Assembly (NCBI RefSeq): GCF_003610295.1
Contig: NZ_RAPV01000002.1
Span: 186,001 to 250,000 of the forward strand
Length of the DNA: 64,000 nt
Direction of reading: 5' to 3'
DNA from: Paraburkholderia sp. BL23I1N1
GTDB taxonomy: Bacteria > Pseudomonadota > Gammaproteobacteria > Burkholderiales > Burkholderiaceae
Position numbers and translations under genes: made by a program
The notes under the pieces: generated by a model
Database searches by the model: none
Told to the model about the DNA's origin: nothing
What the model saw: the letters and a program-made list of their open reading frames with translations, nothing else
Shown here: in pieces, positions 363-44,139 of the stretch
Layout of the letters: every line of letters begins with the position of its first letter
Numbering within the stretch: the first letter of the stretch is position 1

Positions 363-2123
363 TTACTGTTGCGTGACAAACTCGATGCGGCGGTTAGCAA
401 AGCGGCCACTCGCCGTGTCGTTGCTCGCGACCGGACGCACGTCGCCGTAACCTTGCGCGACAAGCGAATCCGCCGGCACGCCCGTCTTTACGAGATACGC
501 ACGAACCGCTTCGGCGCGCCTCGTCGACAGTTCCAGATTGGCTTGTGTGCCGCCGACATTGTCCGAATAACCGGCCACTTCGAGCTTGGGCGCCCTGCCG
601 TTGCGGGCGCAGGCGTGCAGCACTTGTGCCGACTGGTTCAGATCGGCCATCGCCGAGACGGGCACGCGGGCGCTGGCGCTCACGAAGTTGATGACCTGCA
701 GGTTCAGGACCTTGACCACGTCCGCTGTCACGCACGAGCTGTCCGGCGCGAGCAGGCCCTTGATCGCACCGTGGAAGTTCTCAGTTGCATTGGCGACCGC
801 CTGTTCGACGTTGAACGAACCGATCTGATACGACGCGCCGAACAGCGACTTCAGCTTATCGAGCCAGCCGAGCTTTGCGTTTGCCGCGCTGCCGCTCAGT
901 TCGATGCGCGCGCCGTCCACTTTCACCTCCGCGCCCGGCAATGCCATTAGCGGCATCAGGCCGTCAAGACGAGCGAGCCAGTCGGCCGACTTCGTGTCCT
1001 GGTCCACTGTCACGTTCGCGACGAAATGCTCGGCACCGATGCGCCTGGTCAGCGCGTCGATCAGTTGAGTCTTGTCGGCTTCGCTGCCGACCGTCGCGGT
1101 GAGCGTCGGCTTGCCGGCGGCGTCGACCGTGAAGCTGATCTGGCTGTCTTTGGTCGGCGCGGGTGCGGCGGCGGGCTGCTGCGCTTCGCTGGCGGCGCTT
1201 GCCGCAACGGCGCTGGCGGCTGCCGTCGAAGCCGCTGCGTCGCTCGCAGCGGGCGTTAAGACCGCGGCGGCCGAGGCCTCAGCCGGTGCGGATGCGGGCT
1301 GCGCAGTGGCCGCGGCTTCCGCGCTACTGCGCTCACTGCTTTGTGCGCCGCGTTGCTCATTTTGGCAACCGCGCAGGAAAAGGAAAGCCAGCACGGCAGC
1401 AATCGCCGCGAGCAGCCACCACAGCCACTTGCGCGGACGGCGCTCTTCGCGCACCACAGCGTCGACTGGCACGCGGATGCTCGACATGGCCTCGGCCACC
1501 GGCTTGGCGGCAGGCGTCGGATGGTCGATGTGCGCCGAGACCGCCTTCAGTTGCGACAGAATATTGCCGCTGAACGCGCCAAGTGTGCTCAGGCCAAGGC
1601 CGCCCATCAAACGATCGTTCAGGTACGGCGCAATCGCCGGCAGTTGATGATCCAGCAGCGTCGGCAGTTGGCCCACGTTGCCCTGGCCTTCGAGAAAATG
1701 ACGCTTCAGCAGGCCCAGCAGCGTTGCGCCGACGATGCCCGTCATGGCGTGCGTCGCATGCGCCGGCACACCGGTTTGAGTGGCGACTTCGTCGCTGAGC
1801 GTATCGACGCGGCGATCGAGCACGCGCTCGAGCAAGTGGCGACCCGCACCTTCCAGTTGGCTCACGCCGGTGGTGCTGCCGAGCAGTTGCGGCAACTGCT
1901 CGGCGATGTGGCCATTCACCTCAGGCGAAATGATCGCGGCGAACAGCGACCGCGCGCCGTCGAGCGTTGCACCCTTCTGCATCAGGCCGGCGATGAGCGC
2001 CGGGCCGGTTGTTGCAAGCACCTTCTGGGTCGCGTCCGGCGGCAGCCCGAAGCGGGTCGCCAGCTGTCGCACAATACCGTCCGTCAACGCGGACTGAATC
2101 AGCTGAATCACATTGATACTCAT
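363..2123 (-). CDS. DUF937 / transmembrane / OmpA-like domain protein
   Basis: This 586-residue protein is read from ATG 2123, chosen over an upstream ATG because AGGAAG lies 8 bases before it. The N-terminal part (about 1-190) resembles the helical DUF937 family. A single membrane segment, KWLWWLLAAIAAVLAFLFL, lies near residues 231-249, followed by an Ala-rich linker. The C-terminus (about 475-586) is an OmpA-like peptidoglycan-binding domain with the typical GYSDNVG, LSTRRAEAV and GYGD elements. The layout suggests an inner-membrane anchored protein that reaches into the periplasm and grips peptidoglycan. The OmpA-like domain is clear; the role of the DUF937 part is unknown. Confidence 0.85.
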   Translation of the reverse strand: MSINVIQLIQSALTDGIVRQLATRFGLPPDATQKVLATTGPALIAGLMQKGATLDGARSLFAAIISPEVNGHIAEQLPQLLGSTTGVSQLEGAGRHLLERVLDRRVDTLSDEVATQTGVPAHATHAMTGIVGATLLGLLKRHFLEGQGNVGQLPTLLDHQLPAIAPYLNDRLMGGLGLSTLGAFSGNILSQLKAVSAHIDHPTPAAKPVAEAMSSIRVPVDAVVREERRPRKWLWWLLAAIAAVLAFLFLRGCQNEQRGAQSSERSSAEAAATAQPASAPAEASAAAVLTPAASDAAASTAAASAVAASAASEAQQPAAAPAPTKDSQISFTVDAAGKPTLTATVGSEADKTQLIDALTRRIGAEHFVANVTVDQDTKSADWLARLDGLMPLMALPGAEVKVDGARIELSGSAANAKLGWLDKLKSLFGASYQIGSFNVEQAVANATENFHGAIKGLLAPDSSCVTADVVKVLNLQVINFVSASARVPVSAMADLNQSAQVLHACARNGRAPKLEVAGYSDNVGGTQANLELSTRRAEAVRAYLVKTGVPADSLVAQGYGDVRPVASNDTASGRFANRRIEFVTQQ

Positions 2124-2181
2124 TGCTTCGCTTCCTAGAGTTCCCGAACGCGCCACCTGACGCGCTCTTTTTCGCGGCGCG

Positions 2182-2210
2182 ATTATAGGTTTGGGGAAAT
2201 CTCATAAACG
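2182..2210 (-). promoter_or_regulatory. Possible sigma-70 promoter for the DUF937/OmpA gene
   Basis: On the minus strand a perfect TATAAT (2182-2187) lies about 60 bases before the start codon. A weak -35 (TTTATG, 3 of 6 matches) sits 16-17 bases further up. The surrounding 2200-2290 is unusually AT-rich for this window, as expected of a promoter. The -35 is poor, so this is tentative. Confidence 0.45.
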
Positions 2211-2294
2211 AAGCGACACAATTTATGACGAATTAACCGACGTTCGCCTAAATATTCTTATATTTACGACCAAGATTAAGAAGATTGCTGTTCC

Positions 2295-3941
2295 TCACGC
2301 CGCTACACCGGCGACTCCCGCCGCCATCGCAGGCACCGTTTGCCCCGCGCGTCGGCTCGCCACAATCAGTTCAGCCGCGCGCTCGCCGATCATCACCGTC
2401 GGCGAATTCGTGTTGCCGCCAATCAGCGTCGGCATCACGGACGCATCGACGATCCGCAGCCCCGTCACGCCGCGCACCCGCAACTGCGGATCGACCACAG
2501 ATTGCGCGTCGCCGCCCATCCGGCACGTAGCCACCGGGTGATAGATCGTGTCGGCATGCTCGGCGATGGTCCGGCGCAAATCTTCCTCGGTCTGGCCGGA
2601 ATGCGTGTACAGCTCCTTGCCGCCGTGTAGCGCCAGCGAGGGTGCGTCGAGAATGCGCCGCGCCATCTGCGCGCCTTCCACCAGCAGGTCGAGATCGCGC
2701 GAGTCGCTGAAAAACCGCGGATCGATCACGGGCGCGGTGCGCGCGTCGGCGCTCGCGAGCGTCACCGTGCCGCGGCTATGCGGACGCAACACGCACACGT
2801 GCAGCGAATAGCCGTGGCCCCAGTGCATATGGCGGTTGTGGTCGTCGACAATGGCCGCGCAGAAATGCAGTTGCAGGTCCGGGCGCTCGAGCGTCGGCCG
2901 GCTCTTCAAAAAGCCGCCCGCTTCGGCGACGTTGCTCGACAGCATGCCTGTCCCATGCCGCATGAAGGTCACGAACTGCGGCAGCATCCGCGCGATGCCG
3001 CGAATCGAAAAGCCGGTCGGCTCGATCGACGACACCCGTTTATTGATCGTGAAGTCGACGTGGTCGATCAGGTTCTGACCGACCACGGGCGCATCGTGCA
3101 GCACGTCGATACCGAGCTGTTGCAAATGCGCCGCCGGCCCGATCCCCGAGCACATCAGCAGTTGCGGCGAATTGAACGCGCCCGCTGCGAGCACCACCTC
3201 GGCGCGCGCTTCGAGCGTTTCAGTACGGCCGCCGCGCACGATTTCGACGCCGCTCGCGTGCTTGCCGTCGAAGGTCACGCGCAGCACCGTCGCATCGGCG
3301 ATCGTATGGAGATTGGGCCGCGCGCGATCGTAGATATAAGCACGCGCGACGCTGCAGCGCTGTCCGTCGCGCTGCGTCACCTGATAGAAACCGACGCCTT
3401 CCTGGTCCGCCCCGTTGAAATCGGTGTTCAGTTTGTAACCGGCTTCGGTCGCGGCCTGCACGAAGCGCTTCGAAAACGGATTGTGATAGCGCAGATCGGA
3501 CACCGTTAGCGGGCCGTCCGCGCCGTGCCATGCATCGGCGCCGCGCTCGTTGCCTTCGGCCCGACGGAAATACGGCAGCACGTCGGCCCACGACCAGCCT
3601 TCGCAGCCGAGCTGCGCCCATTCGTCGTAATCGAGCGGATGGCCGCGCGTGTAGATCATGGCGTTGATCGCGCTCGACCCGCCGAAGCCCCGCCCGCGCG
3701 GCTGATAACCCTGGCGGCCGGCGAGCCCCGGTTGGGGCGTCGTCAGATAGCCGTAGTTGGTTTTGAGTTTGTGCGGCACGACGGCCGCCACGCCCACCGG
3801 CATGTTCACGAACAGATTGCGGTCCGTATGCGGACCCGCTTCGATCAGGGCGATCGTCGCGTCGGGGCAGCTATCCGCCAGACGGCTCGCGAGCGAGCAG
3901 CCGCCCGAGCCCGCACCGACAATGATGTAGTCGTATTGCAT
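2295..3941 (-). CDS. GMC-family FAD-dependent oxidoreductase (choline/alcohol dehydrogenase-like)
   Basis: This 548-residue protein starts at ATG 3941 behind a strong AGGAGG Shine-Dalgarno. It opens with the FAD-binding Rossmann motif DYIIVGAGSGGCSLASRLAD, then carries both GMC signatures: GFGGSSAINAMIYTRGH near residue 84 and GAFNSPQLLMCSGIGP in the middle. The C-terminal HPVATCRMG and GNTNSPTVMIGERAAE hold the conserved catalytic His and the second FAD contact. The family oxidises alcohols to aldehydes and passes electrons to a quinone or O2. The closest named relatives are choline dehydrogenase (BetA) and medium-chain alcohol dehydrogenases. No bet genes are adjacent, so the substrate is not assigned. 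Confidence 0.9.
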   Translation of the reverse strand: MQYDYIIVGAGSGGCSLASRLADSCPDATIALIEAGPHTDRNLFVNMPVGVAAVVPHKLKTNYGYLTTPQPGLAGRQGYQPRGRGFGGSSAINAMIYTRGHPLDYDEWAQLGCEGWSWADVLPYFRRAEGNERGADAWHGADGPLTVSDLRYHNPFSKRFVQAATEAGYKLNTDFNGADQEGVGFYQVTQRDGQRCSVARAYIYDRARPNLHTIADATVLRVTFDGKHASGVEIVRGGRTETLEARAEVVLAAGAFNSPQLLMCSGIGPAAHLQQLGIDVLHDAPVVGQNLIDHVDFTINKRVSSIEPTGFSIRGIARMLPQFVTFMRHGTGMLSSNVAEAGGFLKSRPTLERPDLQLHFCAAIVDDHNRHMHWGHGYSLHVCVLRPHSRGTVTLASADARTAPVIDPRFFSDSRDLDLLVEGAQMARRILDAPSLALHGGKELYTHSGQTEEDLRRTIAEHADTIYHPVATCRMGGDAQSVVDPQLRVRGVTGLRIVDASVMPTLIGGNTNSPTVMIGERAAELIVASRRAGQTVPAMAAGVAGVAA

Positions 3942-4249
3942 CCGCTCCTCCTGGTGGGGCCGCGTTGCTTGCAGACCCGGTCTCGTGCACACTTGTCTAC
4001 GTGTGTTTTATCGGCATTGTAGGGAGCGTTCAGGCGCGACGGCGGGTTCGTGTCAGAGCGATCCCTCTAAACGAAAGCCCGCCCGCGACCCTATGATGAA
4101 AGACGCGCATGCGCCCGCCAGGCCGCCGCGCACGGCATTCAAACACGGCGCCTCGCACGCCGTCCTCTGAGCGTGCGGCACGACACGCCGCGATAAAACA
4201 GCACGCCGTCGATCAGCGGCGGCACGCATCCGGTGAACGGAGACAGCAG
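3942..4249. other. Divergent intergenic region, GMC oxidoreductase / aidB
   Basis: This 308-base gap between two divergently read genes must carry both promoters. A possible -35 (TTGTCT) lies near 3993, but no convincing -10 is spaced from it. I see no gene and no clear operator. Confidence 0.5.
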
Positions 4250-5941
4250 ATGGATCGGAACAGCTTCGGCCACACCCACGACGTGACAAATCAGGCGCCT
4301 CCTCTCGCGGACTACAACCTGTTTTCGAGCGACGTGGCGTTGTCCGCCGCCCTCGACCGCGAAGGGGCCGCGTGGCATCGCGAGGCGTTGCAGCGGCACG
4401 GCGCGGCCCTCACCACGCCCGAGACACTTGCGCTTGCCGAACTGGCGAACCGCCACACGCCCGAACTTGTCACACACAGCCCGCGCGGCGAACGCATCGA
4501 CGCGCTGGAGTTTCATCCTTCGTGGCATACCCTGCTGTCGCTATTGCGCCGCGAAGGCCTGCACGCATTGCCGTTTTCGGATCCGCAGCACGGCGCCATG
4601 GTCGCCCGTTGCGCGGGCTATTTCCTGCACGCGCAACTCGAATCCGGCTCCCTCTGCCCGCTGACGATGACCTTCGCGAGCATCCCCGTGTTGCAACGCG
4701 AACCCGCGTTGTTCGACACGCTGCGCGACAAGCTCTATGCCCGCGAACACGATCCCCGCGACGTGCCGCTCACGCAAAAAACCTCCGCGATGATCGGCAT
4801 GGGCATGACCGAGAAACAGGGCGGCTCGGACGTGCGCAGCAATCAAACCTGTGCGTATGCCACGCCCGGCAGCGGCCGCGGCCGCGGCACCGAATACCGC
4901 CTGGTCGGACACAAATGGTTTTTCTCCGCGCCGCAATGCGACGCGCATCTGGTGCTCGCCCGCACCGACGATCACGCGAGCCTCTCATGCTTTTTCGTGC
5001 CGCGTTTCGCGCCAGATGGCAGCAAGAACGCGGTGCAGATCCAGCGTCTGAAAGACAAGCTCGGTAACCGCTCGAATGCCAGCAGCGAAGTCGAATTCTT
5101 CGACGCGTTCGGCATCATGATCGGCGACGAAGGCCGCGGCGTGCCGACCATCATCGAAATGGCGAACTACACGCGGCTCGATTGCGTGATCGGCAGCGCG
5201 GCCTTGATGCGCGCGGCGCTGGTGCAGGCGATCCACCATGCCCGGCATCGCAGCGCCTTCGGCCGGCATCTTGCCGATCAGCCGTTGATGCGCAATGTGC
5301 TCGCCGATCTGGCGTTGGAATCGGAAGCCGCGACGGTGTTGTTCATGCGGCTCGCGCGCGCTTTCGAAGAATCGGCCGATGCGTCGTCGGCCGCACCCGC
5401 CGAACGCGCATGGCGGCGGATCGTCACCCCGGCGGCGAAGTACTGGGTCTGCAAGCGCACGCTGGAATTCACCGGCGAGGCCATGGAAGTCTGGGGCGGC
5501 AACGGCTACGTCGAAACCGGTCCGATGGCGCGCTTCTATCGTGAAGCGCCGGTAAATTCGATCTGGGAAGGTTCGGGCAACGTGATGTGCCTCGACGTGT
5601 TGCGCGCCATAGAGCGCGAGCCCGACGCGGCGCAGGCCCTGTCCGCCGCATGGCAGGCGGATGCGCAAGGGCACCCGGCTTTGAGCGCCGCACTCGGCAG
5701 GCTCGCCGCCACGCTCACCGGTCCGGCCGAACATCGTGAAGCCTCCGCTCGACGGATCGCGCAGCAGATCGTGCTGATCGCGCAAGCCACCTTGCTCCTG
5801 AAGCACGCGCCGCTCGAAGTGGCCGAGGCCTTCATCGCCACGCGTCTCGCCGACGGCTGCGGCGAGAACGGCCGCGTGTACGGCACGCTGCCGGTCACGT
5901 TCGACCACGCGGCGATCATCGAAAGAGCATTTCCCGCTTGA
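4250..5941 (+). CDS. aidB: AidB-like acyl-CoA dehydrogenase
   Basis: This 563-residue protein starts at ATG 4250 with GGAGA upstream; the upstream in-frame ATG at 4109 lacks family similarity. The N-terminus has the AidB-type PPLADYNLFSSD. The core has IGMGMTEKQGGSDVRSNQ (flavin/substrate loop), HKWFFSAPQCDAHLVLA, LKDKLGNRSNAS, and the C-terminal VNSIWEGSGNVMCLDVLRA typical of AidB. E. coli AidB is a tetrameric FAD protein of the alkylation response with weak isovaleryl-CoA dehydrogenase activity, which binds DNA. Here the gene stands outside any ada regulon visible in the window and precedes an aldehyde dehydrogenase by 86 bases, so co-transcription is possible. Confidence 0.88.
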   Translation: MDRNSFGHTHDVTNQAPPLADYNLFSSDVALSAALDREGAAWHREALQRHGAALTTPETLALAELANRHTPELVTHSPRGERIDALEFHPSWHTLLSLLRREGLHALPFSDPQHGAMVARCAGYFLHAQLESGSLCPLTMTFASIPVLQREPALFDTLRDKLYAREHDPRDVPLTQKTSAMIGMGMTEKQGGSDVRSNQTCAYATPGSGRGRGTEYRLVGHKWFFSAPQCDAHLVLARTDDHASLSCFFVPRFAPDGSKNAVQIQRLKDKLGNRSNASSEVEFFDAFGIMIGDEGRGVPTIIEMANYTRLDCVIGSAALMRAALVQAIHHARHRSAFGRHLADQPLMRNVLADLALESEAATVLFMRLARAFEESADASSAAPAERAWRRIVTPAAKYWVCKRTLEFTGEAMEVWGGNGYVETGPMARFYREAPVNSIWEGSGNVMCLDVLRAIEREPDAAQALSAAWQADAQGHPALSAALGRLAATLTGPAEHREASARRIAQQIVLIAQATLLLKHAPLEVAEAFIATRLADGCGENGRVYGTLPVTFDHAAIIERAFPA

Positions 5942-18267: not shown

Positions 18268-18901
18268 TTGGCCTTTCCTAGATTTGTTATTGGTCTATTA
18301 GCGTTGCCCCTGTGCGGGGCAGCACTTACTTTCTTTGCCGCCGCAGAGAAAGATAAGCAAAGAAAGCGGCTCAAACCGCTAATTCTTAAGCGGGTCCCCC
18401 GCGCAGCCACGGTAGTGGTGCATCTGGAATCCGTGCCCCCGCACACTCGCCGTTAGTGACTAAGGGCTCATCAGCTCCCACTCCGCACTGCGTGCGTCGC
18501 GGATGGGTCTGCCTGGGAAACCTTGGGCTTCGTTTTCGCTTGGTGGGAGCCATTGGCTTCGCCTCGGCGCGCAGCCGAATGCGCAAACACGATCGAAATC
18601 TGGAAGTACCGCAAACCGAGCGCGGCAGGATCGCAAAAACGCAACAGCTGGTTCTATGAAATGCCCTTCGGCGCGCGCAGCGCCGCCGGAAGTATGACGG
18701 CTTTGTCACCAGGGCTGAATGTGCGAGAACACAGATTCCAGATGCACCACTACCCCCTCCAAGCCAGGGGACCCGCTTATGAGCTAGCGGTGTGAGCCGC
18801 TTTCTTTTGCCTACTTTTCTTTGCGGCAGGCAAAGAAAAGTGGGTGCTGCCCCGCACAGGGGCGACGCTAATAGACCGATAAGAAAACAAGGAAAGGCCA
18901 A
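18268..18901. repeat. Large imperfect inverted repeat in the fliK-fliL gap
   Basis: The left arm (18268-18460) and the reverse complement of the right arm (18705-18901) match over nearly 200 bases at roughly 80 percent by eye. Long shared words include GGTCTATTAGCG, GCCCCTGTGCGGGGCAGCAC, AAAGAAAGCGGCTCA, TAAGCGGGTCCCC and GTAGTGGTGCATCTGGAAT. About 240 bases of unrelated sequence lie between the arms. Smaller hairpins around GCAAAGAAAAGT sit inside each arm. I recognise this as the type of repeat found in many intergenic regions of Paraburkholderia. No transposase is present. The rest of the 900-base gap (18220-19123) holds no gene that I can support. Confidence 0.85.
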
Positions 18902-19123
18902 CGCCCCCGGCAAACAGAAACCAAACGCCACACGGCCAAATGAGCAACAACAACAAACCCACCAAAGGCAAAAAACCCCAAACCCAAAACCAAAAAACAA
19001 ATCCCGCCTGAAAGGCAAAAACCAGAGATAGCCCTCAATAACCCTTCTTTTCGACCCATCGCGCCGCAGGCAAATCAACAACAATCACCCTCACCAGCAC
19101 TAAAGGCAAGCAAAGCAAACCTC

Positions 19124-39335: not shown

Positions 39336-39431
39336 AGATTTCGATCGCGCGGCGCGTTTCACGCGCTGACGCGGTTGAGTAGATTGCTTTGATCGGGATA
39401 GGGGCAGGCCTCGCGGCCCGACCCCTCCCAC

Positions 39432-39465
39432 ACCACCGTGCGTACGGGTCCGTACACGGCGGTTC
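39432..39465 (-). ncRNA. Domain V of intron A
   Basis: On the minus strand GAACCGCCGTGTACGG is followed by CCGTACGCACGGTGGT: a 34-base hairpin with the terminal and internal stems of group II domain V, starting about 15 bases after the reverse transcriptase stop. Confidence 0.75.
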
Positions 39466-39480
39466 GGATCGGTTAATCGA

Positions 39481-40848
39481 CTATGGCCTTAGTGATGGAA
39501 GCCCCAGCGAGCGAAGGTAACGGTTTGACAAGGCGATGCCCAGCGCGGGACTGCAACTCAGCCGCCACGCATCGTGTGGCGAACCGACCGTCTGGGCAGC
39601 AAGGTTTCGGCTGACGCCGCGTACTGTCAGCTCCCGGAATCTTGTGCGGCCCCGTTTCCACTGCTTCCAGAAGAAGCAGCGGATGCGGCGGCGTATCCAT
39701 TCATCCAGGCGTTGCAGAACGCTGGGCGTTTCGCAGAAACCGAAGTAGCCCCGCCACCCTGCCAGATAACGTTTCAGCGCGCCGATCATCTGGTCGACGC
39801 TGACCCCGCGCGTGCGTTGAGTCAGTTCCCGGACCCGATCCTTGAAGCGAGCCAGTGCCTTGGGCGCAATGCGCCGTTTGATCTGCTCCCGCCCCGAGAA
39901 GGTGAAGCCCAGAAACGTCCGCGTGTGTGGCCGTGCGACGGCGCTCTTCGCTTCATTGACCTTCAGCTTCAGCTTGCCGGTGAGGAAGGCTTTCAGCCCC
40001 GCCATCACCCGCTGGCCCGCGCGTTCGCTGCGTACATAGACGTTACAATCGTCGGCGTACCTCACGAAACGCAGCCCGCGTCGCTCAAGCTCCCGGTCAA
40101 GCTCGTCGAGCATCAGATTGGATAACAACGGCGACAGGGGACCACCCTGGGGGGTGCCCTCGTCCGTCGCACCAACCAGCCCGTGCTCCATCACGCCCGC
40201 CGTCAGGAAGGAGCGAATCAGCTTCAGAACGCGTCTGTCACTAACCCGTTTTGCCACCCGACTCATCAAGATGTCGTGGCTCACGCGATCGAAGAATTTC
40301 TCCAGATCCAAATCTACAACCCATCGATACCCCGACTGGATGTAGCTTTGCGCCTGCGCCACTGCCTGATGCGCCGAGCGTCCCGGACGGAAACCGTAGC
40401 TGGAGTCCGAGAACGTCGGGTCCCACTGCCTTTGCAACACCTGCAAGACCGCCTGCTGGACGAATCGGTCAGGCGCAGAAGGGATGCCGAGCTTGCGCAC
40501 GCCACCGCCATCCGGCTTGGGTATCTCGACCCGTCTCACAGGTTGAGGCTGGTATGTGCCGTTCAGCAGCGTGGCCCGTATCGACGGCCAATGCTCCCGC
40601 AGGTACGCCGGTAATGCCTGAACGGTCATCCCGTCCACGCCCGGTGCGCCCTTGTTAGCTTTCACACGCTTCAACGCCTGCTTCAGGTTCCCCCTTTCGC
40701 AGACTTCTTCCATCAGTCGGTCATATGCCGACGGGCTTTCAGACTCGGGGTTCGCCGCCATAGGTTCAGCCCCTCGATCAGCAGCCATCGGAGCTTCACC
40801 CCTGCCTCCGCTGTCGAGGACGCGATGCGTTTTCTGCTGCGCTCCCAT
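39481..40848 (-). CDS. ltrA: Group II intron reverse transcriptase/maturase (intron A)
   Basis: This 455-residue protein starts at ATG 40848 with GGAGA upstream. It contains the RT blocks in order: GAPGVDGMTV (RT0/1), KLGIPSAPDRFVQQAVLQVL, SSYGFRPGRSAHQAV, WVVDLDLEKFFDRVSHDILM, DEGTPQGGPLSPLLSNLMLDELDREL and the catalytic RFVRYADDCNVYV. A maturase domain (RYLAGWRGYFGFCETP) follows. No HNH endonuclease domain is visible, in line with class C proteins, which use single-stranded or replication-fork targets. The catalytic YADD is intact, so the enzyme may be active, though its intron is split by intron B. Confidence 0.93.
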   Translation of the reverse strand: MGAQQKTHRVLDSGGRGEAPMAADRGAEPMAANPESESPSAYDRLMEEVCERGNLKQALKRVKANKGAPGVDGMTVQALPAYLREHWPSIRATLLNGTYQPQPVRRVEIPKPDGGGVRKLGIPSAPDRFVQQAVLQVLQRQWDPTFSDSSYGFRPGRSAHQAVAQAQSYIQSGYRWVVDLDLEKFFDRVSHDILMSRVAKRVSDRRVLKLIRSFLTAGVMEHGLVGATDEGTPQGGPLSPLLSNLMLDELDRELERRGLRFVRYADDCNVYVRSERAGQRVMAGLKAFLTGKLKLKVNEAKSAVARPHTRTFLGFTFSGREQIKRRIAPKALARFKDRVRELTQRTRGVSVDQMIGALKRYLAGWRGYFGFCETPSVLQRLDEWIRRRIRCFFWKQWKRGRTRFRELTVRGVSRNLAAQTVGSPHDAWRLSCSPALGIALSNRYLRSLGLPSLRP

Positions 40849-40956
40849 GTCGAGTTCTCCGGCTTACTCGCCGCTCCTTTCCGTTCGGGCCTTCAGGCGT
40901 CGCCGCCCTGTTGGGTCGGAGGAGGCGCGCTGACGCGCTGGCCTCCGTCCGCCGCT

Positions 40957-40992
40957 CAAACTGCACGTGCCGTTTTCCGGCATGCAGCTTTC
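40957..40992 (-). ncRNA. Domain V of intron B
   Basis: Minus-strand GAAAGCTGCATGCCGG, loop AAAA, CGGCACGTGCAGTTTG: a typical group II domain V. It begins within the stop codon of the intron B reverse transcriptase. Confidence 0.8.
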
Positions 40993-42295
40993 ACGAAGAT
41001 GCAGCATGCTGGGACGCAATTGAAGGTATCAGTTGCACAAGGTTGACCAACCCGAACTCGCCATAGAGCCGCGCCTCGGGCAAGACCTTCCAGCCCATAT
41101 TGCGCCAGCGCTTGAATCGATGCGACCAGATACGCCGCACGATCCATCGGTTGAGCCGGTTGAAGATTCGCCGGACGTGGGAGCGCTTGTAGTAGTGCCC
41201 CCAGCCCCGCAGGATGGGATTGAGCCGTCCAATCAGCTCCCGCGTTCGAAGCGGCACACATCTCTTTGTAAGACGACGCACCTGATCCATGAAACGCTGG
41301 ACCGATTTCTCCCGGGGGTACGCGTACAGCGCACCCGATCGGGCGCCACTGCGGATTTTGGCCGTGGGCAGCGATAACTGCCGCCCACGCTTGATCTTGT
41401 AGCCGAGAAACTCGAATCCAAACCGGACATGCACGATCCGCGTCTTCTGCGGATGGAGTTGCACACCCAGTGCGCTCAGAATCTTCGTCGCCGCCGCGAT
41501 GGCTGCGCGCGCTTCTGCCTGGGATGAACAGGTGATCACCCAGTCATCCGCGTAACGGGTAAGCTGGTAGCCCTTAAGCCGCATCTCCCGATCAAACGGC
41601 GTCAGGAGGATATTGCTGAGCAGCGGTGAAGCTACCCCACCTTGCGGCGTTCCACGCTCGCTCGGAAAGAGACGACCCTTGCCGAAACTACCGGCTTTAA
41701 GCATCGCCTTGATCAGGCTTAGTACCCGACCGTCAGCGATGCGCTGGGCAATGAGCGACAGAAGTTTGTCATGGTCAACTGATCCAAAGAAGTCCTTCAG
41801 ATCAGCATCAACAATCCATTCCCTGCCGCCCTCGATCTCCCTCCAGATCTTGCGCAAAGCGTCGTGTGTCGATCGCCCTCGCCGATACCCGAAGTTGGCC
41901 TCGTCGAATACCGGCTCGAAGATCGGCTCCAGACGGTTGAGCAGCGCCTGCTGACATACGCGATCGTAAATCGACGGTATGCCGAGATTGCGGAACTCCC
42001 CCGGTTTGCCGACTTTCGGGATCGAGACCCGCCGGACCGGTTGCGGCTGATAGGTCCGCGCACGCAGTTCTGCCTGCAGACGGTCCAGATGCTGGTCCGC
42101 CTGTTCGGCAAAGTCTGCCACGCTGATTCCATCGACACCGCCACTACCCCGGTTGGCCCGGACTCGCTCCCAGGCGACTTCCAGATTCTTCCGTTGATAA
42201 ACCTTGTCAATTAATGAGTGGACCTTCCTTGCTTCCATCGGGTTGATCCAGTCAGACAGTCTCCTCGGGCGCGGATGTACGGGTATTTCGCTCAT
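40991..42295 (-). CDS. ltrA: Group II intron reverse transcriptase/maturase (intron B)
   Basis: This 434-residue protein starts at ATG 42295 behind GGAGGAGG. RT blocks include GSGGVDGISVADF, RNLGIPSIYDRVCQQALLNRL, ANFGYRRGRSTHDAL, EWIVDADLKDFFGSVDHDKLL, ERGTPQGGVASPLLSNILLTPFDREM and the catalytic LTRYADDWVITC. The C-terminal maturase domain contains LNPILRGWGHYYKRSHVRRIFNRLNRWIVRRIWSH. No HNH domain is visible. Sequence and intron structure differ clearly from the intron A enzyme, so the two are independent insertions and not a duplication. Confidence 0.93.
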   Translation of the reverse strand: MSEIPVHPRPRRLSDWINPMEARKVHSLIDKVYQRKNLEVAWERVRANRGSGGVDGISVADFAEQADQHLDRLQAELRARTYQPQPVRRVSIPKVGKPGEFRNLGIPSIYDRVCQQALLNRLEPIFEPVFDEANFGYRRGRSTHDALRKIWREIEGGREWIVDADLKDFFGSVDHDKLLSLIAQRIADGRVLSLIKAMLKAGSFGKGRLFPSERGTPQGGVASPLLSNILLTPFDREMRLKGYQLTRYADDWVITCSSQAEARAAIAAATKILSALGVQLHPQKTRIVHVRFGFEFLGYKIKRGRQLSLPTAKIRSGARSGALYAYPREKSVQRFMDQVRRLTKRCVPLRTRELIGRLNPILRGWGHYYKRSHVRRIFNRLNRWIVRRIWSHRFKRWRNMGWKVLPEARLYGEFGLVNLVQLIPSIASQHAASS

Positions 42296-43286
42296 GGAAC
42301 TGATCCTCCTCCGTGTCCTTACTCACTGCCGTCCGGGTTCTTCCCAATCATCTTCGCCGGCTGCCTTCCCCGACCCACTTCTGTCGCCGATCGCTCGGTC
42401 ACGTGGTTTTAGCCACGCTTCAGGTACTACTCAGCCGTCCGACTACTGACACAGCACCGCTCGCCACTTCGCTCCTCGCTTATAGGCTCACTTCCCGCGG
42501 TGCCACCCGCGGACTGTGCCAGTTCTCCTGGGGTCACACGCTGTTCTTCCGTACCGTGCCGTCCGCAAACACCTTGGTGCGGTGGGTGTATGAGAACGCC
42601 TTCGCCTCCATAGTGCAGGCTCGACCTTACCCCACCTTTGGCCGACCGGTTCGTCATCGGGGCAGCCCCCATCGACTACGGCCCGGTACTTCTCCTCATG
42701 CCCTTCGGATTCCGCCTCGCGGCGGACACCCTGCCCTCCGGAGTACTGCGAGATGATGGCTTCAGGTCCGCCTTGTCCGTTTCCGGCTTTCGCCTTCGTG
42801 CCCGGTTAGACGTCTCCATACCTTCCCACCTCTCTCCGGCCAGCAAGGCATTACCCCCGCTTTCGGATATGGCGCCCCTCATCCGGGCGCCAGAGGGACT
42901 TCAACCCTCCGGAACAACGCGCTGCCCAGCGCACAATATGCCCTCTGCTGACTCCTGCACGGTGGTCAACGGCCCTTGCGAGCCGCTCAGTCCTCATTTC
43001 AGGACGCCGTGCAGGCCTCCCGAGGTAAGCGCAACCGCCTTCCCCACACACCTGCCAGATCTACCACCCCAGCCCTTGATGGCTATGGACTTCGCAATCA
43101 ATTGCTTGCTCGTCCGGCCAGGTAGGCCTCGCATCTGGTTTCTGTTCGTCAGGTCATGGCTTTGCTACACGCTTCCTTCAGACCCCGCCTCACGACGACG
43201 CCCTTGCGTTTCGCTAGTCCTTCACCACCATCAGGTTGGACAGGGGACTCACACCCCCAAGCTGTTGCGCATGCTCGGCGCACAAC

Positions 43287-43317
43287 AAAAAGGGCTCGTC
43301 TTTGACGAGCCCTTTTT
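43287..43317. terminator. Bidirectional rho-independent terminator (intron A target)
   Basis: AAAAAGGGCTCGTC, loop TTT, GACGAGCCCTTTTT: a perfect 14-base stem with T-runs on both strands. It probably ended the flgMN transcript before the intron pair separated them, and also any transcript arriving on the minus strand. Intron A begins 4 bases away. Confidence 0.9.
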
Positions 43318-43341
43318 GTTTTCTCCTCCCGCAAAGGGCGC

Positions 43342-43530: not shown

Positions 43531-43547
43531 TGCATTCCAGGAATGCA
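43531..43547. promoter_or_regulatory. Palindromic operator candidate for hicAB
   Basis: TGCATTCC-A-GGAATGCA is a perfect 8-base inverted repeat immediately before hicA and overlapping its AGGAA ribosome binding site. HicB antitoxins with a C-terminal ribbon-helix-helix bind such palindromes, so autoregulation is likely. Confidence 0.75.
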
Positions 43548-43549
43548 AT

Positions 43550-43732
43550 ATGAACAGCGCCGAGCTCGTGAAAGCAATTCAAGCGGATGGCTGGCGGCTG
43601 GTCCGAATATCGGGCAGCCACCATCATTTCCGGCACGCGGAAAAAAACGGTCTCGTGGCCATCCCGCACCCGAAGAAAGATCTTCCGCCCGGCACACTGA
43701 ACAGCAGCTTGAAACAGGCAGGCCTGAAATGA
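43550..43732 (+). CDS. hicA: HicA-family toxin (mRNA interferase)
   Basis: This 60-residue protein starts at ATG 43550. It has the compact HicA double-stranded-RNA-binding fold pattern: ELVKAIQADGWRLVRISGSHHHFRH, with the catalytic histidine in GSHH (H24), then VAIPHPKKDLPPGTLNSSLKQAGL. HicA cleaves mRNA and is neutralised by HicB. It overlaps hicB by 4 bases (ATGA). The pair lies between fliA and the intron-disrupted flgN region. Confidence 0.93.
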   Translation: MNSAELVKAIQADGWRLVRISGSHHHFRHAEKNGLVAIPHPKKDLPPGTLNSSLKQAGLK

Positions 43733-44139
43733 AGAATCTGATTTTCCCGATCGCGATCGAGCCTGGTGACGCACACCATGCGTTCGGCGTGGTTGTCCCC
43801 GACATTCCGGGTTGTCATTCGGCGGGTGATTCACTGGAAGACGCCTACGCGAACGCGAAAGAAGCGATCGAGGCACATCTGGATACGCTGCTCGACGAGG
43901 GCTTGCCGATTCCCGAGCGGCTGACCCTGGACGAGCATCGGCTTAATCCGGACTACGCGGGTTTTACTTGGGGTTTTGTCACCACGCGGAATATTCCGGC
44001 GCTGAAAAAAGCGGTGCGCATCAATATCTCGCTGCCCGAAGCGCTGGTTCACGATATCGACGCTTACGCCCAGGCGCGCGGCATGTCGCGCTCGGCGTTT
44101 CTCGCGCTGGCCGCGGAACATGAGATGGCGGACGCGTAA
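43729..44139 (+). CDS. hicB: HicB-family antitoxin
   Basis: This 136-residue protein starts at ATG 43729, overlapping hicA. The N-terminal partly degraded RNase H-like HicB domain has FGVVVPDIPGCHSAGDSLEDAYANAKEAIEAHLDTLLDEG. The C-terminal ribbon-helix-helix (VRINISLPEALVHDIDAYAQARGMSRSAFLALAAE) is the DNA-binding part. It neutralises HicA and should repress the operon through the palindrome at 43531-43547. Confidence 0.93.
   Translation: MKNLIFPIAIEPGDAHHAFGVVVPDIPGCHSAGDSLEDAYANAKEAIEAHLDTLLDEGLPIPERLTLDEHRLNPDYAGFTWGFVTTRNIPALKKAVRINISLPEALVHDIDAYAQARGMSRSAFLALAAEHEMADA

Follow-up and report, generated by a model that had tools for sequence, protein, structure and literature searches.

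How one group II intron comes to lie within another, and whether such nesting is an accident or the habit of a lineage, is the question raised by a locus in Paraburkholderia sp. BL23I1N1 (NCBI RefSeq assembly GCF_003610295.1, contig NZ_RAPV01000002.1, positions 186,001 to 250,000; this 64,000-nucleotide stretch is termed the window). There, a class C (IIC) group II intron is interrupted by a second group II intron on the same strand, i.e. the locus is a twintron. We propose, with a probability of about 0.8, that the inner element is an autonomous, endonuclease-less group II intron specialised for insertion, in the sense orientation, into the D4a hairpin of domain 4 (D4) of other group II introns; the estimate has been lowered a little because the target in the window pairs with the inner intron at only five of seven positions. 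A preliminary description of the locus as a twintron is partly supported, in that it is right but too narrow.

Two nested introns

The outer intron, including its insert, occupies 39392..43283 (3892 nucleotides (nt); minus strand, as are all features of both introns), as delimited by the Rfam models RF02001 and RF00029, other genome copies and its boundaries. Its 5' part, up to the 5' half of D4a, spans 42935..43283 (349 nt), and its 3' part, delimited by copies and boundaries, 39392..40909 (1518 nt), the latter including an open reading frame (ORF) for a class C-type reverse transcriptase (RT)/maturase with an intact YADD motif (39481..40848; 455 residues). Covariance models applied to both halves, a check suggested in the preliminary description, place RF02001 at 43029-43199 and RF00029, i.e. 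domains 5 and 6 (D5/D6), at 39392..39464 (42 bits). The RNA gives an RF02001 match to domains 1 to 4 (D1-D4) of 134.2 bits, and the uninterrupted copies in the genome match RF01998 as well, both of which we take to be Rfam families standing for IIC introns. The best Protein Data Bank match of the outer RT is the GsI-IIC RT (6ar1; E 3.7e-153, 514 bits), and Pfam gave only RVT_1 and GIIM, with no endonuclease domain. A terminator-like hairpin (43284..43320; strand not assigned, judged by eye), ending TTTTTGTT, directly precedes the intron start at 43283, and all seven outer copies in the genome sit, by eye, after such a hairpin and a T-run. The outer element is thus a class C intron, as had been suggested, by its IIC-type RNA, its endonuclease-less class C RT and its post-terminator insertion.

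The inner intron, GTGCGCTGGG...CCGACCCAAC, occupies 40910..42934 (2025 nt), limits which are set by two natural uninterrupted outer copies and which agree with an RF00029 match ending at 40910. It has GTGCG and AC termini, fitting GUGYG...AY ends, and D5/D6 at 40910..40992 (RF00029, 36.8 bits, which is below the gathering score of 40; E 4.5e-5 over 2081 bases scanned), so that each intron has a domain V of its own, as had been claimed. Its RT/maturase (40991..42295; 434 residues) scores 380.8 bits, over the TIGR04416 cut-off, with RVT_1 and GIIM as the only Pfam domains and no endonuclease domain found. The inner element is a group II intron by its RT/maturase ORF, its domain V/VI and its ends. 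The two RTs, both of which retain YADD as first described, are 37% identical, and the inner RT scores 224 bits against GsI-IIC (the outer RT 514 bits), in a comparison set without named references of classes D, E, F and g1-g4. The RF02001 match of the inner RNA (28 bits) is below the gathering score of 32. Its closest named DNA and protein matches are from Paraburkholderia hospita and Caballeronia.

The genome (9.1 Mb, four contigs) contains five full twintrons, two uninterrupted outer introns (L007 and L008, of 1867 and 1866 nt), a further inner intron at another place and an outer-type fragment of 42 nt, in a copy search that scored 40 of 91 candidates. Because the same 3886-nt nested arrangement occurs five times at 99-100% identity with unrelated flanks, chance nesting is excluded, and the locus is a twintron with one intron lying within another on the same strand. 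L007 and L008 are continuous versions of the same outer intron, rather than the differing arrangement against which the preliminary description had guarded. The empty joint in them reads CATATTAGGGCGG and the twintron joint CATATT/inner intron/AGGGCGG, an exact joint with no target duplication relative to the uninterrupted copies. The nesting originally proposed therefore stands, as does an outer leader of about 410 bases after inner removal (349 + 61 = 410 nt before the outer ATG), whereas the proposed coordinates do not: the inner intron ends at 40910, not about 40912, and for the 3' end of the outer intron 39392 is a better position than 39398, since the seven genome copies all share ...CCCTATCCCGAT before they diverge and the RF00029 match stops at 39392.

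It might be argued that the five copies result from misassembly or from segmental duplication, the nesting being a single accident that was copied within the genome, and their 99-100% identity would fit this. However, all seven outer copies have unrelated flanks and exact intron ends, and records from other genera, independent of this one, show the same nesting at a motif of this kind, so that this reading is strongly disfavoured and very improbable.

The sixth inner copy in the genome (L006) lies at the matching spot of a different class C-type intron (AGTCAGCAGAGGCCGAAGT/inner intron/AGTCACAGG), which has an RF02001 match of 100.9 bits and is without an RT ORF. This second host (L006 1194-3886) is apparently an ORF-deleted class C-type intron that is still usable as a target; the gene ahead of it is presumably one for isocitrate dehydrogenase. 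A census of class C introns, in which 150 of 163 first-look candidates were scored, found eight RF02001 introns in the genome, six of them with the inner intron. Of the 29 group II RTs that exceed the cut-off, none but those of the five twintron pairs have a same-strand neighbour within 2 kb. More generally, the genome is rich in group II introns, with the 29 RTs over the TIGR04416 cut-off falling into several families by score and length, and some of them forming identical-scoring sets of five.

The insertion site in the host intron

The 5' half of the outer D4a hairpin, AGTCAGCAGAGGGCATATT, which is the target, lies at 42935..42953 and the 3' half at 40888..40909, both placed by RF01998 alignment in L007. 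RF01998 covers outer nt 295-371 in the uninterrupted copy, with the joint between nt 349 and 350, and it has no match at the gathering threshold in the window. The joint sits in the internal loop of the hairpin GGGC-AUAUU/A-GGGCG..CGCCU-GAAG-GCCC, and a minimum-energy fold gives the same hairpin (z -2.47). The name D4a is given to the split hairpin because it lies between the D1-D3 region and the ORF, and because of what we take to be the meaning of the motif. D4a is described, in the parts of two accounts available to us, as the maturase-binding arm of IIC introns (PMC10190682, PMC10733145). The insertion leaves the RF02001 (D1) and D5/D6 matches uncut and, because the joint falls inside the D4a hairpin, the inner intron splits the maturase anchor and not a catalytic domain. 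The view that it occupies a neutral part of D4 was dropped once RF01998 had put the joint inside this hairpin.

Relatives of the inner intron

Relatives of the inner intron were gathered by RT protein or DNA similarity, not by insertion site, giving 88 loci (the best 80 of 95 from a genome scan, plus eight plasmid loci); two of these, L050 and L103, are from the same record, and L052, L053 and L093 are from one genome. A search for the intron start was possible in 74 of the 88, and the junction set comprises the 61 in which the start scored 12/17 or more and was preceded by 22 nt or more of sequence. Among these 61 5' junctions, GTCNG stands at the right distance in 50, a TAGT end in 45, both in 38 and either in 57, compared with 4.5%, 0.12%, 0.014% and 4.6%, respectively, at 120,020 random positions in the same loci, and with 44, 0, 0 and 44 at 685 other G[TC]G[CT]GC sites used as a control. 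Removing four loci with another motif from the 57 leaves 53 D4a-type junctions out of 61, and three more (L067, L076 and L101) lie outside the 61, L076 being a relative with 41% identity.

The flanks point in the same direction. Same-strand Rfam D1-D4 matches (D1D4-3, -4 and -6) end within 300 nt upstream in 42, and within 200 nt in 38, of the 56 flanks that were scanned with at least 200 nt available; in four of the 42 (L022, L044, L058 and L082) the match is of type D1D4-4 and ends 249-268 nt upstream. A second group II RT is present in 26 of the 61 loci, the best-scoring one always on the same strand (26/26) and within 1000 nt downstream in 21. The 3' end was called in 34 loci and is followed by A in 30 and by T in one (L035); as for the other calls, two are evident mis-hits (L027, L057) and in L028 another inner copy follows. 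The site and the sense orientation are demonstrated at the sequence level. Among the isolates in the set are Paenibacillus, Cohnella, Aeoliella, Desulforhopalus, Microvirga, Cupriavidus and Thiocapsa. Such nesting had first been called rare, a description that passes over what matters most, namely that there are five copies in one genome and that the majority of the surveyed relatives are nested at a site of this kind.

The four loci with another motif (L025, L029, L061 and L095) are all labelled Acidobacteria; their target is a short GTCGGCA....GGAAG with otherwise unrelated flanks, the exon-binding site 1 (EBS1) is changed to ACTTCT(A/G), and no Rfam match was found upstream of them. It is possible that they reflect retargeting away from introns. 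Four further junctions (L026, L096, L098 and L104) are unclear; in L104 the 3' flank is intron-like and another RT lies close by.

Two relatives have unusual arrangements of their own. In L028, labelled as a metagenome-assembled genome (MAG) of Slackia heliotrinireducens, two inner-type introns lie head to tail (~697-4738), the 3' end of one abutting the 5' end of the next, the two RF00029 matches being separated by 2028 nt; the tandem may be due to recombination, to misassembly or to repeated homing. L101, on plasmid pBB2 of Cupriavidus necator N-1 (1287-4886), has its inner-type intron at a D4a-type site, and this intron has in turn been split: ~1.6 kb with an IS110-family transposase gene separates inner nt 451 from nt 450.

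Searches by pattern or DNA gave few further matches. A 23-base pattern matched, in 369 class-level genomes, the six known copies of this genome and one sequence with two mismatches in each of two others, and a DNA search of 59 genomes including this one, scoring at most five candidates per genome, found inner intron DNA in two of the 58 others (G023, inner nt 1-644 at 85%; G053, 31-nt matches). A 16-base start pattern gave 62 stretches in viral contigs, none with an inner-type RT downstream and none after TAGT; these are chance matches and serve as a negative control.

Target recognition

ACTATGG, the proposed EBS1, lies at inner nt 321-327 (42608..42614) and occurs once in the inner RNA, in a loop of the sub-threshold RF02001 match. 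Across 55 loci, the pairing of EBS1 with the intron-binding site 1 (IBS1) of the target involves 353 of 385 positions, compared with 330.0 (SD 3.2) for shuffled partners, and none of 2000 shuffles reaches 353; the set leaves out L103, L093, L026, L096, L098 and L104, and loci with EBS1-region scores below 19/26. Target and EBS1 thereby covary, e.g. CCATATT with AGTATGG and TGGAAGT with ACTTCTG, and there is almost no variation at positions -3 to -1 (55, 52 and 52 of 55). The L006 target pairs with EBS1 at six of seven positions.

It could be that the intron-encoded protein, or the shape of the D4a hairpin, is the main target cue, with EBS1-IBS1 pairing secondary. The conserved AGTC(A/G)G falls outside IBS1, the target in the window pairs at 5/7 only and the acidobacterial target of L061 can also be folded as a hairpin, all in keeping with such a cue, but the covariation above all 2000 shuffles and the near invariance of IBS1 positions -3 to -1 make this explanation unlikely.

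The inner intron, like its family, carries a D4a-type motif of its own (AGTCGGACGGCTGAGTAGT, 42426..42444). In 39 loci EBS1 pairs with the own motif at a mean of 4.8/7 positions versus 6.3/7 for the real target, which is the better partner in 31, equal in six and worse in two. This hints that the lineage may tend to avoid its own D4a, against which is the equal pairing (5/7) of EBS1 with the target and the own D4a in the window; alternatively, the weaker pairing with the own motif may come from shared descent of the motif.

Movement of the inner intron

Comparison with other hosts argues for movement of the inner intron independent of the outer one. The P. hospita inner intron is 97.7% identical to that in the window, the outer parts 90.2% and 87.4%; in a Caballeronia locus (L054) the values are 97.6% for the inner intron and 88.4% over 620 nt for the outer 3' part; and the inner copy in L006 is 99.9% identical, with a host at 67% over 164 nt and 81% over 47 nt. 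Among the five twintrons, one copy (C2:1029k) has 18 private single nucleotide polymorphisms (SNPs) in the inner intron and none in the outer (one-sided binomial 7.8e-6, sites being treated as independent), a pattern that gene conversion may also have produced. Because the inner copies are more alike than their hosts, and because of the private SNPs of C2:1029k, the inner intron must have entered hosts on separate occasions, more than once. The other four twintron copies fit either composite movement or separate entry.

Composite movement, in which the twintron is one mobile unit, the outer intron leaving with its insert in place and retrohoming whole, has some points in its favour. Within four of the five copies, SNP differences are about equally few in the inner intron and in the outer one, inner SNP 1679 divides the copies in the same way as outer SNPs 2812 and 3182, and D4 is a loop outside the catalytic core, composite retromobility being named as possible in the available part of PMC2882425. 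By contrast, inner SNP 398 conflicts with that split, C2:1029k has 18 private inner SNPs and no outer ones, inner copies are also found in other hosts, with far greater similarity among themselves than among the hosts, and the insertion splits a maturase arm that the outer intron would need. Composite movement as the explanation is thus possible but rather doubtful, and it may act beside, not instead of, insertion by a specialised inner intron.

The proposal of such a specialised intron also has evidence against it. The EBS1 in the window pairs with its target, GCATATT, at 5/7 only, no better than with the intron's own D4a; no EBS2 was identified when sought by complementarity; and the D4a stem re-pairs only weakly across the joint (10 of 28, versus 5.5 (SD 2.0) when shuffled, with a maximum of 11 in 300 shuffles). 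Eight of the 61 junctions are not D4a-type, i.e. the four acidobacterial and the four unclear ones, 14 of the 56 scanned flanks have no Rfam match within 300 nt, and many of the relatives are from MAG contigs, the labels of which may be wrong. That there is an intron lineage living in other introns is nevertheless well supported at the sequence level.

Proposed mechanism and implications

In the mechanism proposed, the EBS1 loop ACTATGG would be matched to the conserved D4a sequence C(A/G)TAGT, with insertion just before the next base, usually A; retrohoming is the probable route. Both introns are predicted to splice, the inner one first, and splicing of the inner intron out of the host RNA should keep the host catalytic core and RT usable, so that harm to the host intron would be small, while the inner intron would gain a conserved target that is itself mobile. 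Since the D4a maturase arm is split and the D1 and D5/D6 matches are uncut, it is plausible that prior removal of the inner intron is needed for maturase-assisted splicing of the outer one, which is less than the preliminary view that the outer intron can splice only once the inner one has left.

A broader proposal can be put forward tentatively, at odds below even, i.e. that a widespread endonuclease-less lineage is a near-obligate hyperparasite of group II introns via D4a, tending to avoid its own D4a, and that protein-assisted splicing and mobility of the host depend on prior inner removal, the anchor being split, so that loss of inner activity would be selected against. If the proposed specialisation is correct, bacterial twintrons would shift from curiosities to the usual life style of one intron lineage, and the exploitation of one retroelement by another, through a site that the host can hardly change (the maturase-binding arm), would become testable. 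With five filled copies, two empty ones and one in an alternative host, all within a single genome, splicing order and composite mobility can be tested directly. There may also be consequences for annotation, in that, according to the available parts of the respective accounts, twintrons are put aside at one stage of a published pipeline (PMC4028801), and with another pipeline the outer intron escaped detection (PMC8919778).

Elsewhere in the window, HicA/HicB-type toxin-antitoxin genes (Pfam HicA_toxin and HicB_lk_antitox; 43541-44139, plus strand) adjoin the 5' end of the outer intron, and 18834-18933 (plus strand) matches the Burkholderia small RNA family Bp1_684 (RF02421; 48.4 bits).

Comparison with known systems

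No report of a lineage targeting D4a of other introns was found in the open-access literature searched, most subscription papers being outside its scope, and the available part of PMC3552965 does not mention one. The outer intron resembles GsI-IIC-type class C introns (6ar1) in its RF02001 match, its best RT match and its post-terminator insertion, and differs from them only in the insertion in D4a.

Repeated homing of group II introns into group II introns is known from the nested introns of Methanosarcina acetivorans, as summarised in the available part of a review (PMC4424553), and in this respect the present system is similar. It differs in that the archaeal case, compared by title and summary and not by exact sites, is described by the title of the primary report (Dai and Zimmerly, 2003) as homing into related intron ORFs, in one archaeon. 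A Trichodesmium twintron, for which sequential splicing was shown, likewise has an ORF-bearing inner intron in an ORF-bearing outer intron in a bacterium (PMC4649490, available part). By contrast, the Trichodesmium inner intron is in host D1, in a protein gene and a single case, whereas the present one is in D4a, intergenic and multicopy, and is known from sequence alone.

Together with the Methanosarcina introns, the closest precedent is Thermosynechococcus elongatus, in which, in the available part of PMC2882425, TeI3 introns are described within TeI4 introns at a conserved site in domain IV. As in the present system, there is repeated inner insertion at one conserved D4 site of a multicopy outer intron, the inner copies are more alike than the outer ones and independent insertions were inferred. 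However, the T. elongatus inner introns are ORF-less and share an ancestor with the outer introns, whereas the inner intron here has its own intact RT, 37% identical to that of its host, and so is not of the F3/F1 type, with an ORF-less inner intron closely related to the outer. The T. elongatus inner introns also lie between the first two ATGs of the outer ORF, rather than in the D4a loop upstream of it and, unlike in T. elongatus, the relatives of the present inner intron are nested in this way in many genomes and types of host.

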